NCBI RefSeq assembly: GCF_004340205.1 | Contig: NZ_SLWB01000012.1 | Location: forward strand, 1-64,000 | Length of the DNA: 64,000 nt | Direction of reading: 5' to 3' | Source of the DNA: Acetobacteroides hydrogenigenes | Lineage (GTDB): Bacteria > Bacteroidota > Bacteroidia > Bacteroidales > ZOR0009 | In this document: positions 16,901-58,949 of the stretch, piece by piece | Layout of the letters: each line of letters begins with the position of its first letter | Numbering within the stretch: position 1 is the stretch's first letter | Program-made: the position numbers and the translations under genes | The notes under the pieces: generated by a model | What the model was told of the DNA's origin: nothing | Database searches by the model: none | What the model saw: the letters and a program-made list of their open reading frames with translations, nothing else

Positions 16901-17204
16901 CAACTACAGGGGTGTAAGGGACTCACCGAACTCTGGCGGACCAATTACAGGGGTGTAAGGGACTCGCCGAACTCCGGTGACGCAATTACAGGGGTGTAAG
17001 TGACTCGCCGAACTCTGGCGGACCAATTACAGGGGTGTAAGGGACTCGCCGAACTTCGGTGACGCAATTACAGGGGTGTAAGTGACTCGCCGAACTCCGG
17101 TGACGCAATTACAGGGGTGTAAGTGACTCGCCGAACTTCGGTGACGCAATTACAGGGGTGTAAGTGACTCGCCGAACTCTGGTGACGCAATTGCAGGGGT
17201 GCAA
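16901..17204. repeat. 41-bp tandem repeat array, 7.4 copies
   Basis: Units start at 16901, 16942, 16983, 17024, 17065, 17106, 17147 and a partial unit at 17188, always exactly 41 bases apart. Each contains the palindrome TTACAGGGGTGTAA (CTACA in unit 1) and then GACTCGCCGAACT. Two unit types exist: units 1 and 3 end in TGGCGGAC, the others in GGTGACG. There are no unique spacers, so it is not a CRISPR. The 41-base period is not a multiple of three, which argues against coding. Confidence 0.9.
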
Positions 17205-37165: not shown

Positions 37166-37374
37166 AGCCTGTCCCACTAATAGGAACACCTATCCCGCCA
37201 ATGCGAGGAGCTGTCCCTAAAAAAATGAGCCTGTCCCGTTTGAGGAAGGACTTGTCCCAGCCGAAAAAGCACCTATCCCGAAAAAAAAGGAGCTGTCCCA
37301 CCTAAAAGAGGAGCTATCCCAGAAAAAAAGGACTCGTCCCGTTGGGGAACAGAGCTGTCCCTCGTCTCGGAAGG
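37166..37374. repeat. Degenerate phased repeat, ten units of 20-21 bp
   Basis: The core GAGCTGTCCC (variants GCCTGTCCC, GCTATCCC, CACCTATCCC, GACTTGTCCC) recurs with TCCC starting at 37172, 37193, 37214, 37234, 37255, 37276, 37296, 37317, 37337 and 37358. Steps are 21 or 20 bases, on average 20.7, close to two turns of B-DNA. Between cores the sequence is A/G-rich and variable. The 20-base steps break any reading frame. Confidence 0.85.
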
Positions 37375-55104: not shown

Positions 55105-56430
55105 ATGAAACGATTTATCACAAGTGCTCTTGCGCTAATTGTTGCCGCTACCTCATTCGGCCAACCCAAGCAGAGCCCTCAGGCAACCATCAAGCATGTT
55201 GACTGGGCCAAGAATGCCGTAATCTACGAGGTAAACACCCGCCAGTACACCCCCGAGGGAACCTTCAAGGCCATGCAGGCACACCTCCCCCGCCTCAAGC
55301 AGCTCGGCGTCGATATCCTCTGGTTTATGCCCATCCACAAGATTGGCGTAAAGGACCGCAAGGGCGAGCTGGGCAGCTACTACTCCATTCAGGACTACAA
55401 GAGCATCAACCCCGAGTTCGGCAATATGGATGACTTTAAGGCCACCGTTAAGGAGGCCCACAAGCTCGGCTTTAAGGTAATCATTGACTGGGTGGCCAAC
55501 CACACCTCGCGCGACTCGAAGTGGCTCATCGAGCATCCCGAGTGGTTCGTAAAGGACAAGGACGGGAACGTGCTTGCCCCATTCGACTGGAGCGACGTGG
55601 CCAAGCTCGACTACACCAGCAAGGAGATGCGCGCCGCCATGGTCGACGCCATGAAGTTCTGGCTCACCGAGGCCAACATCGACGGCTTCCGCTGCGATGT
55701 GGCCGGCGAGGTGCCCACCGATTTCTGGGATGATGCCCGTCGCGAGCTCGACAAGGTGAAGCCCGTATTCATGCTCGCCGAAGCCGAGAAGCCCGAACTT
55801 ACCCTAAAGGCTTTCGACATGGACTACGCCTGGAACCTTCACCACATCATGAACCAGATTGCACAGGGCAAGCAGGATGTAAGCGCCATCTCCGGCTACT
55901 TCAAGAAGCAGGATTCGCTCTACACCAAAAGCGCCATCAGGATGAGCTTCACCTCGAACCACGACGAGAACACCTGGAACGGCACCGAGTTCGAGCGCAT
56001 GGGCCCTGCGGCCAAAACCTTCGCTGCGCTCTGCTACATGATGCCCGGCATGCCGCTAATCTACAACGGACAGGAGGTTGCCTTTAACCGCCGCCTCGAG
56101 TTCTTCAAGAAGGATTCCATCGCTTGGAAGGACGACGCCGCCTACACCACCTTCTACCAAAAGCTCAACCAGCTCCGCAAGGCCAACAAGGCCCTTTGGA
56201 GCGGCGACAACCGCAACGTTTCGTACAAGGTCGATCCAAAGGGTAATACGCTAATCATCGAGCGCACCAAGGAGCAGAACCGGGTAGTAGCCCTGTTCAA
56301 CATGAGCGGCAAAGAGGTCCAAATGGCGACACCTTCGTCAGCAAAGAAGGAGTACCTCAGCGGCAAAACCTACAAGCCCAACACCAAGGTCACCCTAAAA
56401 CCTTGGGAGTTCTTAATCTTCGTAAAGTAG
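55105..56430 (+). CDS. Periplasmic alpha-amylase-family enzyme, GH13
   Basis: The 441-residue enzyme has a cleavable signal peptide (about 1-19) without lipobox, so it is probably periplasmic. The GH13 barrel is complete: DWVANHT (region I variant), nucleophile D198 in DGFRCDVA, acid E226 in MLAEAE, and transition-state stabiliser D287 in TSNHDEN. A short C-terminal beta domain ends at PWEFLIFVK. At 441 residues it is much smaller than SusG and lacks starch-binding insertions, which suggests action on short maltodextrins. It is closely similar to the cytoplasmic paralogue at 57623. The codons are more G/C-rich than in susCDE. Confidence 0.9.
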   Translation: MKRFITSALALIVAATSFGQPKQSPQATIKHVDWAKNAVIYEVNTRQYTPEGTFKAMQAHLPRLKQLGVDILWFMPIHKIGVKDRKGELGSYYSIQDYKSINPEFGNMDDFKATVKEAHKLGFKVIIDWVANHTSRDSKWLIEHPEWFVKDKDGNVLAPFDWSDVAKLDYTSKEMRAAMVDAMKFWLTEANIDGFRCDVAGEVPTDFWDDARRELDKVKPVFMLAEAEKPELTLKAFDMDYAWNLHHIMNQIAQGKQDVSAISGYFKKQDSLYTKSAIRMSFTSNHDENTWNGTEFERMGPAAKTFAALCYMMPGMPLIYNGQEVAFNRRLEFFKKDSIAWKDDAAYTTFYQKLNQLRKANKALWSGDNRNVSYKVDPKGNTLIIERTKEQNRVVALFNMSGKEVQMATPSSAKKEYLSGKTYKPNTKVTLKPWEFLIFVK

Positions 56431-56446
56431 CATACCATAGCGCATA

Positions 56447-56477
56447 GAGGCTGCTCGCACGAGCAGCCTCTTATTTT
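56447..56477 (+). terminator. Terminator of the periplasmic GH13 gene
   Basis: GAGGCTGCTC (56447-56456) pairs perfectly with 56461-56470 around a four-base loop; TTATTTTT follows. It lies 17 bases after the stop codon. Confidence 0.88.
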
Positions 56478-56512
56478 TGCCTCCATCTCCGGGTTCTCCG
56501 GCCACCAGCCTC

Positions 56513-57037
56513 AGCTCTTTTACTTCCAGGCTGAGCTCTAGAGCAACTTAGCTCAGCTCTACTGCCTCCAGCCTGAGTACTATTGCTTCCAGCTTAAGCT
56601 CTAGGGCTTCCAGTCCGAGTACTTTTGCTTCCAGCCCCAGCTCTAGGGCTTCCAGTCCGAGTACTTTTGTTTCCAGCCCCAGCTCTACGGCTTCCAGTCT
56701 GAATACTTTTGCTTCCAGCCCCAGCTCTACGGCTTCCAGTCCGAGTACTTTTGCTTCCAGCCTGAGCTCTTTTGTTTCCAGCCTAAACTCTAGAGCAACT
56801 TAGCTGAGTTCTGAAGCTACTGCGCCGAGCTCTTCTGCTACTGCGGCCAGCTCTACCGTTACTGCGCCCAGCTCTTTTGCTACTGGGCTAAGCTCTGGAG
56901 CTACTGCGCCCAGCTCTGGAACTACTGTGGCCAGCTCTTTTGCTACTGCGCTAAGCTCTTTTGCTACTGCGCTAAGCTCTGAAGCTACTGCGACGAGTTC
57001 TAAAGCTACTGCGACCAGCTCTGGAGCTACTGCGACG
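56513..57037. repeat. Tandem array, 25 units of exactly 21 bp
   Basis: The AGCTCT core (or AGTACT, AATACT, AGTTCT) recurs every 21 bases from 56513 to 57017 without a single insertion or deletion, although units differ at many positions. Units 1-14 carry a GCTTCCAG second half, units 15-25 a GCTACTGCG second half. The variant TCTAGAGCAACTTAGCT appears in units 2 and 14, twelve units apart. In one frame each strand is open except for a stop in those two units; the minus strand would encode Leu-containing heptads, but no ATG starts it. Confidence 0.9.
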
Positions 57038-57432
57038 AGTAAAGGGGGAGCTACCGTTCGCCAAGCAGTTCCCCATCCAGCATACGCACATCCGTGCAGG
57101 CCAGCGCCACCTCAAGCGGTGAACGCCCCCAATAGCAAACGACAACCAACCCCTAACGCATCTTATCCCCTAGGGATTCCGCTTTTACAGATTGAAGAAA
57201 ACGATCATTGGAAGAACAACCAACCAACAGAGGACATGCTTACTCGTACAGAATAAAGTTTCTCCGTGAACACCATGGCGAAGCCATACCAGATCGGCGC
57301 GAATTCTGTTCGAGCGAGCGGAGCTGCTACAACGCCAATTCTCGTAACAGCGACGAAAGGACTAGAAGCAAGCCTTTAAGATAGAGACATTCCACCGCGA
57401 CCGAGCGAGTTAATTCGGGCCAAGGGTTTTTC

Positions 57433-57622: not shown

Positions 57623-58876
57623 GTGAAGCACCCCGATTGGACCAAGAACGCAACCATCTACGAGCTCAACGTTCGTCAATTCACCCCCGAGGGAACCTTT
57701 AGGGCCACCCAACAGCATCTAGTTCGCCTAAAAGACCTCGGCATTGGCATCGTATGGCTAATGCCGATCCACCCTATCGGAGAGCTCGAGCGGAAGGGAA
57801 CGCTGGGCAGCTACTACTCCGTAAAGGACTATACGGCCATCAACCCCGAGTTTGGAGACTTCGACGATTTCAAGGCTTTTGTTGATGAAGCCCACCGAAA
57901 CGGAATCCGGGTAATCATCGATTGGGTAGCCAACCACACCTCGCGCGATGCGGTTTGGATTACCGAACACCCCGACTGGTACAAGAGGGATAGCGCAGGA
58001 AACATTCGCGTCCCCTACGACTGGACGGACGTAGCCCAACTCGACACCAACAACCGCCACATGTGGCAGGGCATGGCCAGCTGCATGAAGTACTGGATCT
58101 CCGCGGCCAACATCGACGGCTTCCGCTGCGACATGGCCAGCCTGCTGCCCGTCGAATTTTGGGAGTACATCCGCCAAGAGATCGACAAGGAGCATCGCCT
58201 ATTCATGCTTGCCGAAAGCGAAGACCCCCTACTGCACCGAAAAGCCTTCAACGCCACCTACTACTGGGATCTCCACCATACAATGAACGGCCTTGTGCAG
58301 GGTAAGAATACCGTTGAAGACCTAGATCGATGCTTCAAGAAGCAGCACACCCTATTCTCCCCAAACGACATGAGGCTCATCTTTACCTCGAACCACGACG
58401 AGAATAGCTGGAACGGAACCGAGTTCGAACGAATGGGGATTGCGGCTAGGCAGATGGCCGTATTCTCGTTCCTTATCCCCGGAATGCCCCTTATCTACAA
58501 CGGACAGGAGGCAGCCCTTAGCCACCGCCTTAAGTTCTTCGACAAGGACAGCATCGAGTGGAATGTAAACCGCAACTTCGAGGAGCTATACAAGAAGCTA
58601 ACCGCACTAAAAAAGGAGCACGAAGCACTTTGGAATGCCGAATGGGGAGGCTCCTTTGGCTACCAGTTCAACGGACAAAGCAAAACATTTACGGTTGAAC
58701 GCAAAAAGAAGGGGGATATCGTTATAGGGCTCTTCAACTTTAGCTCCAATACGGCAAGCGCCAGCACTCCACCTTACCCCACAACCGACTACCTGAAGGG
58801 CTCCGTACACGGAGCCTCGAGAGGGATACGCATGCTGCCTTGGCAGTACATCGTACTAGTTAACAGCATCAGTTAA
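57623..58876 (+). CDS. Cytoplasmic alpha-amylase-family enzyme, GH13 paralogue
   Basis: This 417-residue enzyme begins directly with MKHPDWTKNATIYELNVRQF and has no signal peptide, so it should be cytoplasmic. The GTG at 57623 is the start because the homology with the periplasmic paralogue begins there and a promoter lies just upstream. Catalytic residues are D170 (DGFRCDMA), E198 (MLAESE) and D259 (TSNHDEN). It aligns with the 55105 product from start to end. It may hydrolyse maltodextrins that reach the cytoplasm, feeding GH65; transglycosylation is also possible. Confidence 0.88.
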   Translation: MKHPDWTKNATIYELNVRQFTPEGTFRATQQHLVRLKDLGIGIVWLMPIHPIGELERKGTLGSYYSVKDYTAINPEFGDFDDFKAFVDEAHRNGIRVIIDWVANHTSRDAVWITEHPDWYKRDSAGNIRVPYDWTDVAQLDTNNRHMWQGMASCMKYWISAANIDGFRCDMASLLPVEFWEYIRQEIDKEHRLFMLAESEDPLLHRKAFNATYYWDLHHTMNGLVQGKNTVEDLDRCFKKQHTLFSPNDMRLIFTSNHDENSWNGTEFERMGIAARQMAVFSFLIPGMPLIYNGQEAALSHRLKFFDKDSIEWNVNRNFEELYKKLTALKKEHEALWNAEWGGSFGYQFNGQSKTFTVERKKKGDIVIGLFNFSSNTASASTPPYPTTDYLKGSVHGASRGIRMLPWQYIVLVNSIS

Positions 58877-58908
58877 GCAGCCAACAACAAAACGCACTAC
58901 GTGCTACT

Positions 58909-58943
58909 CCCTATTCCCTATTCCCTATTCCCTGTTCACTGTT
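58909..58943. repeat. Heptanucleotide microsatellite, five units
   Basis: CCCTATT occurs three times in a row (58909-58929), then CCCTGTT and CACTGTT. It lies between convergent GH13 and acylphosphatase genes, six bases past the acylphosphatase stop, and could vary in copy number by slippage. It is outside coding sequence. Confidence 0.7.
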
Positions 58944-58949
58944 CACTAG

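Follow-up and report, generated by a model that had tools for sequence, protein, structure and literature searches.

A 21-bp intergenic tandem array in Acetobacteroides hydrogenigenes and the clustering of array unit lengths near multiples of 21 bp in its genus

Named VNTR loci have unit lengths that are specific to each locus. Plasmid iterons are direct repeats of roughly 20-22 bp with near-helical spacing, and eukaryotic satellite DNA, which extends over megabases, displays homogenisation, exchange of units between arrays, and higher-order periods. In the accessible part of the article consulted here, REPs are described as palindromes of 20-40 bp with a tagged end (PMC3733652). The repeats of archaeal Borgs, as far as the available text of their description goes, are perfect, varied in length, and enriched in A; about half lie in genes and have lengths divisible by three, and 14-38% of intergenic unit lengths are divisible by three (PMC9879509). 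A survey of structure-related repeats in prokaryotes found close direct repeats to be generally normal or slightly over-represented, and the portion of that paper available to us makes no mention of a 21-bp quantum (PMC4060949). Among the titles and opening lines of abstracts searched, which covered few subscription journals, there was no description of intergenic arrays quantised at 21 bp in bacteria. Here we analyse an array of this kind in a 64,000-nucleotide stretch of DNA from Acetobacteroides hydrogenigenes, referred to as the window, and compare it with arrays elsewhere in its genus.

The array between two alpha-amylase genes

The window is part of contig C12 in a draft genome of 3.86 Mb in 32 contigs (G000). 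The initial annotation had described an array of 25 units of 21 bp, and this array is real: steps of 21 bases from position 56513 hold a single register to 57037, with no internal indel across the 25 units, the copy number being a count from the 32-contig draft assembly. Over 56505-57034, TRF returns periods of 21, 42, and 84 with 0-2% indels and 63-89% matches. On the plus strand the unit reads AGYNCT-NNN-GCNNC followed by seven looser bases. Columns 6, 1, and 14 hardly vary, and columns 8, 9, and 18 come close to random. The heptad frames noted in the same annotation are also present, one on each strand (Ser/Thr/Ala-rich on the plus strand, Leu-rich on the minus strand), and each contains two stops, in the units that begin at 56534 and 56786. 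The features of the locus are as follows.

55105..56430, plus strand: upstream alpha-amylase gene in a SusC/SusD/SusE-type locus (PF00128, E 8.1e-39)
56446..56471, no strand: perfect 12-bp inverted repeat, then T-rich DNA, 3' of the upstream amylase gene
56492..56512, no strand: decayed in-register unit 5' of the array, with 7 of 8 consensus positions
56513..57037, no strand: tandem array of 25 units, each exactly 21 bp and reading AGYNCT-NNN-GCNNC-NNNNNNN on the plus strand
56513..56806, no strand: units 1-14 (block A), of GCTTCCAG type, most similar to two arrays of G000, on contigs C13 and C23
56534..56554, no strand: unit 2, TCTAGAGCAACTTAGCT type, with a stop in both heptad frames
56786..56806, no strand: unit 14, the other unit of TCTAGAGCAACTTAGCT type, where block A meets block B
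56807..57037, no strand: units 15-25 (block B), of GCTACTGCG type, most similar to the array at the orthologous site in the congener G002
57623..58876, plus strand: downstream alpha-amylase gene on the same strand (PF00128, E 1.6e-32)

The array therefore occupies the gap between two co-directional alpha-amylase genes. The inverted repeat at 56446..56471 is likely the terminator of the upstream gene, as judged from its sequence and position, and its hairpin was the sole one found in a search of 56400-57200 for inverted repeats. Downstream, a 7-bp tandem repeat (CTATTCC x 6.4) is located at window positions 58904-58948.

Units related to those of the window array are found elsewhere in G000, in arrays on C13 (17 units taken), C23 (13), and C6 (11). 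The congener G002 has one array with the window-type unit, which sits at the orthologous position between two amylase genes and contains 11 units, compared with 25 at the same site in G000. Comparison of arrays with one another adds two more distant relatives in G002, bringing the family of the window array to seven. A transposase gene, which we take by eye to be IS256-like, adjoins the orthologous G002 array (L010 3755-5002) and may have truncated it. A DNA model of the unit, built from 22 three-unit stretches, gave no match in the third genome of the genus, G001, and matched 5 of 393 genomes of the order, including G000 and G002. The other three genomes had one match each, apparently in ordinary coding genes and without a 21-bp array, and were set aside, as were a weak hit of the model to G000:C6:145762 (E 0.009), where there is no tandem repeat, and three single matches to the exact pattern in genome contigs, none of which has an array of the window family. 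A pattern search of viral contigs and a comparison of the array with phage records found nothing.

The two blocks of the window array have different closest relatives. Block A has a mean identity of 0.68 to the C13 array and 0.67 to the C23 array, both in G000, but only 0.53 to block B and 0.51 to the orthologous G002 array. Block B has a mean identity of 0.74 to the orthologous G002 array. By unit identity, then, the window array is a chimera of two unit types joined in register, with the 21-bp register kept across the junction. Because block A is nearer to the C13 and C23 arrays than to the orthologous G002 array, it probably derives from a different G000 array by in-register copying, and block B is probably the inherited portion.

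The proposal that unit length has been conserved over sequence was borne out beyond expectation. Among 77 units of five related arrays, a minimum spanning tree contains 231 substitutions, an upper bound that is at most twice the parsimony count, and no indel, in units that were picked as in-phase runs from arrays whose ends could hide indels. Non-coding DNA outside arrays differs between G000 and G002 by 1850 substitutions and 190 indel events over 8607 aligned positions, a rate at which roughly 12-24 indels would be expected among the 77 units. Alignment of the C23 array with a related G002 array has 12 gaps in 225 columns, mostly compensating pairs that keep the unit at 21 bp, although alignments of such diverged repeats are not unique.

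Array periods, sequences, and positions in the genus

Syntenic places in G002 revealed 21- and 42-bp arrays of other sequences, which prompted a systematic survey. Stretches of 20 kb were taken from G000 (400 kb), G002 (400 kb), and G001 (290 kb, where 16 of 20 stretches exist and several are shorter), a total of 1.09 Mb that covers 7-10% of each of the three genomes. A strict set was defined with TRF (length >60 bp, period ≥9), and fundamental periods were assigned by autocorrelation with a subharmonic rule devised for this analysis. In this set, 49 of 58 arrays have a fundamental period of 21 (16 arrays), 22 (4), 41 (8), 42 (19), or 43 (2) bp, and the remaining nine have periods of 15, 15, 28, 29, 33, 52, 84, 99, and 112 bp. 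Across the sampled stretches, unit length clusters at about 21n.

When a wider band was used (21, 42, 63, 84, or 126 bp, with slightly shorter arrays admitted), 58 of 70 arrays in the genus fell inside it, or 5.3 per 100 kb. The controls, 692 kb drawn from 20 other genomes of the order, gave 6 of 17 (Fisher p 2e-4), or 0.87 per 100 kb, so that the two densities differ by a ratio of 6.1; the control stretches include contigs down to 387 bases, and the second half of them comes from 9 of the 20 genomes. The in-band fraction is 30/34 in G000, 19/23 in G002, and 9/13 in G001. At the 3.1-7.5 band arrays per 100 kb seen in the genus survey, extrapolation gives roughly one to three hundred per genome. 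Combining the systematic stretches, targeted stretches, and the window gives 75 band arrays, with periods of 21 (32 arrays), 22 (8), 41 (9), 42 (23), and 43 (3) bp, so that 20 of 75 have the off-multiple periods of 22, 41, or 43 bp. Two further arrays lie in the window, the first of which belongs to the same family as a G002 array at L106:15635-15769.

16901..17201, no strand: second array, 7.3 copies of a 41-bp unit, containing a TTACA-GGGG-TGTAA palindrome (TTACAGGGGTGTAA)
37246..37340, no strand: weak third array, with periods of 41 (x2.3) and 20 (x3.4)

The sequences of these arrays are diverse. The 75 band arrays comprise 11 sequence families, of two to seven members, and 44 singletons, and comparison of the arrays with one another found no sequence common to all of them. 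One 42-bp family is common to G000 and G001 (L082 124-380, L079 10691-10781, and L114 10527-10724); its G000 members have TTTAC...GTAAA-like stems, and the G001 member is not scored as a hairpin. In a 42-bp hairpin array at L077 15256-15643, the TRF consensus units carry different palindromes, of CCCTATGGG and TATGCATGCATA types, and the differences look like compensatory change.

A preference for the same spacings appears outside detected arrays, among intergenic sequences of 9 or more bases that recur exactly. With short-period repeats masked, the genus sample has 16 such repeats at lag 21 and 16 at lag 42, of which 4 come from one stretch, over a background of 1.5 per lag that reaches 6 at most. 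The lags adjoining 21 hold 3 repeats each (lags 20 and 22), and higher lags hold 7 at 105, 5 at 63, 4 at 126, and 1 at 84. The controls have 3 at lag 21, 6 at lag 22, and 1 at lag 42 over a background of 0.8, and an excess near lag 22 is thus not absent from them. Before masking, peaks at 14 and 21 were found in the controls too; the lag-14 peaks, in genus and controls alike, disappeared after masking and were probably caused by heptanucleotide repeats such as CTATTCC.

Most band arrays are intergenic, with an excess in gaps where genes converge. Placement between called genes was found for 63 of 75: 21 arrays lie in the 116 convergent gaps, 14 in the 153 divergent gaps, and 28 in the 409 codirectional gaps (Fisher p 0.0012; p 1.8e-4 by length), where gaps of at least 60 bp were considered, arrays rather than gaps were counted, and targeted stretches were included. 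Synteny was compared between G000 and G002 at four anchors, covering 164 kb and 180 kb, respectively. Five intergenic sites hold arrays in both species: the amylase, threonine aldolase, and cstA sites, C13:33229, and C6:22354 (joined coordinates), with the cstA and C13:33229 gaps anchored by alignment on one side only. The gene names used (threonine aldolase, cstA, C69 peptidase, and transposase) are provisional and come from our own reading of the ORF translations. In the threonine-aldolase gap (L131 649-1001 and L133 1129-1520) the arrays of the two congeners give no alignment, and the C6:22354 and cstA arrays of G000 and G002 are linked only via other arrays of their families. Sorting by hand gave at least 2 sites with an array in G000 only and at least 5 in G002 only. 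With such gain and loss between congeners, no single array looks essential.

Possible origins of the 21-bp unit length

Our preferred reading, to which we assign a probability of about 45%, is that the window array is non-coding and satellite-like, and that a sequence-independent ruler of 21 bp, or two helical turns, holds its units to length. Because periods stay near 21n across unrelated sequences, the ruler would be one that does not read sequence. Two turns of B-DNA are a natural length for 21 bp, and a ruler of about this size would act on arrays throughout the genus, most likely as a DNA-architectural or DNA-processing protein that touches one unit length at a time. Blocks would be copied and retained in 21-bp steps while their sequence drifts. 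More tentatively, the arrays that are retained might buffer torsion or act as spacers coated with protein, chiefly in convergent gaps.

The initial annotation had offered a non-coding, helix-phased array as one interpretation. The conserved length and the clustering at 21n agree with it, but the results do not point to strict phasing. No 10.5-bp harmonic of A/T content was found inside the units, and intrinsic curvature, or helix-phased curved DNA, was rejected on this basis. In addition, the 22-, 41-, and 43-bp arrays (20 of 75) would rotate out of phase, and strict helical phasing is therefore not required. With no 10.5-bp harmonic and with off-phase arrays present, the helix argument is one of length alone. 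Matches to the HU family (3 in G000, 2 in G001, and 3 in G002) are uninformative because 9 of 14 control genomes have such matches too.

The main rival is that the arrays are neutral minisatellites, produced by a replication, repair, or recombination enzyme of the genus that duplicates DNA in 21-nt steps, and that they subsequently expand, swap units, and erode with no function. We regard this explanation as a serious possibility, if one somewhat short of even odds. The window array has the head-to-tail non-coding units, copy-number change, and unit exchange of a minisatellite. A ruler that operates by mutation would also fit the unrelated sequences at most loci, the repeats that persist at lags of exactly 21 and 42 once arrays are set aside, and the gain and loss of arrays between species, while the convergent-gap enrichment can be a by-product of promoter avoidance. 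However, the lack of indels in 77 units suggests that length is maintained after birth as well, and the compensating gap pairs that restore 21 bp between the C23 and G002 arrays, as well as the five array sites common to two species, argue in the same direction. We lean slightly towards a ruler that acts through a protein on whole units rather than at unit birth. A stronger version of the preferred reading, in which a protein machine with a 21-bp ruler builds or maintains intergenic arrays as a bacterial counterpart of phased satellite chromatin, appears rather unlikely on present evidence. If the quantum holds genome-wide, cells would measure DNA in 21-bp steps regardless of sequence. The construction or packaging of intergenic DNA in bacteria would then be under a previously unrecognised constraint, and one open to direct testing.

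A further possible origin lies in palindromic elements of the REP/BIME kind, mobilised by a RAYT (Y1 tyrosine) transposase. In arrays of the 42-bp type hairpins are enriched, occurring in 12 of 35 (shuffle p≤0.05; mean stem score 6.1 versus 4.6). Y1_Tnp matches are present in G000 (3) and G002 (7), and REPs likewise favour unidirectional and convergent gaps according to the available part of the source (PMC3733652). This origin is nonetheless improbable. Arrays of the 21-bp type lack hairpins as a group (3 of 40), and the window array is of this non-hairpin form, with a stem score of 3 against a null of 4.7 and no palindrome. Furthermore, no Y1_Tnp match was obtained in G001, which does have arrays; none of the six Y1_Tnp loci retrieved, each about 3.3 kb long, contains a 21n array; and the arrays share no common sequence. 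Two-copy repeats of 255-256 bp lie near Y1_Tnp matches at L187 1904-2414 and L189 930-1413 (G000, G002).

The other interpretation in the initial annotation was a decayed gene for a heptad-repeat protein, Ser/Thr/Ala-rich if read on the plus strand or Leu-rich on the minus strand, and the evidence makes this origin very unlikely for the window array. Several signals resemble coding. Both heptad frames are stop-free in the other four family arrays when read by unit, and within these frames codon position 3 appears to vary most and position 2 or 1 least. Over the six frames pN/pS is weak, ranging from 0.61 to 1.38, with values of 0.71 and 0.61 in the heptad frames and 0.68 in a third frame. The minus frame of block B passes the cut-off of PF20859 (28.2 versus 27 bits), and the final units of the array overlap a plus-strand ORF of 109 aa that begins with GTG (56927-57256). 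Against this, the frequency of stops equals that predicted from shuffled columns: 2 observed versus 1.6 expected in the plus heptad frame of the window array and 2 versus 1.4 in the minus frame. The count was extended to 45 arrays of period 21 or 42 that have three or more units and neighbours at least 55% identical. Their 183 consensus-open frames contain 263 stops where 275 are expected, and a fully open frame is kept in 38 arrays where 36.4 are expected. Neither in the window array nor in the 45-array set, therefore, is a reading frame kept free of stops beyond what composition gives.

Periods of 22, 41, or 43 bp occur in 20 of 75 band arrays, and only 3 of 75 lie within called genes (simple ORFs of at least 100 aa). 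Since these periods break the frame and stops are not avoided, codons are a poor candidate for the ruler. The PF20859 match covers a short, helix-like repetitive stretch of 24 residues, six other translations have no match above the Pfam cut-offs and only weak matches to PHROGs, and no ORF of at least 80 aa spans the window array. An intact version in relatives, which the annotation had named as decisive for a pseudogene, was absent from 393 genomes at the level of the DNA model, which would miss a version with other codons. We judge the coding-like signals, namely pN/pS, the open frames, the codon-position pattern, the PF20859 match, and the 109-aa ORF, to be by-products of composition. Heptad-like open frames can follow from a 21-bp period, and such frames risk being mis-annotated as small repeat proteins.

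Finally, a structured or regulatory RNA transcribed from the window array, as might be imagined from its position 3' of one amylase gene and 5' of another on the same strand and from the hairpins in some sibling arrays, has very little probability, given fold energies that are not significant on either strand (z -1.4 and -0.3), no Rfam match within the array up to E 1, and a likely terminator that precedes it.

Comparison with known repeat systems

Like plasmid iterons, the window array is made of direct repeats in the range of roughly 20-22 bp at near-helical spacing, but the arrays of the genus are many, unrelated in sequence, and chromosomal. With REP/BIME elements, as presented in the available text, the genus arrays share an intergenic, dispersed distribution, occurrence in convergent gaps, and a possible role in supercoiling; they differ in that the window array is not palindromic and the genus class is without a common sequence (PMC3733652). 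The Borg repeats, in the accessible part of their description, resemble the genus arrays in forming many independent, element-specific arrays of unrelated units with rapid turnover, whereas the genus arrays are diverged, mostly intergenic, and clustered at 21n (PMC9879509). With bacterial intergenic tandem repeats and VNTR minisatellites the window array shares head-to-tail non-coding organisation, variable copy number, and decayed units. Unlike VNTR loci, however, the arrays of this genus cluster at 21n across mostly unrelated sequences. Compared with eukaryotic satellites, they are bacterial, intergenic, and only hundreds of bases long, but they have in common with them homogenisation, the exchange of units between arrays, and higher-order periods, here of 21, 42, 84, and 126 bp.
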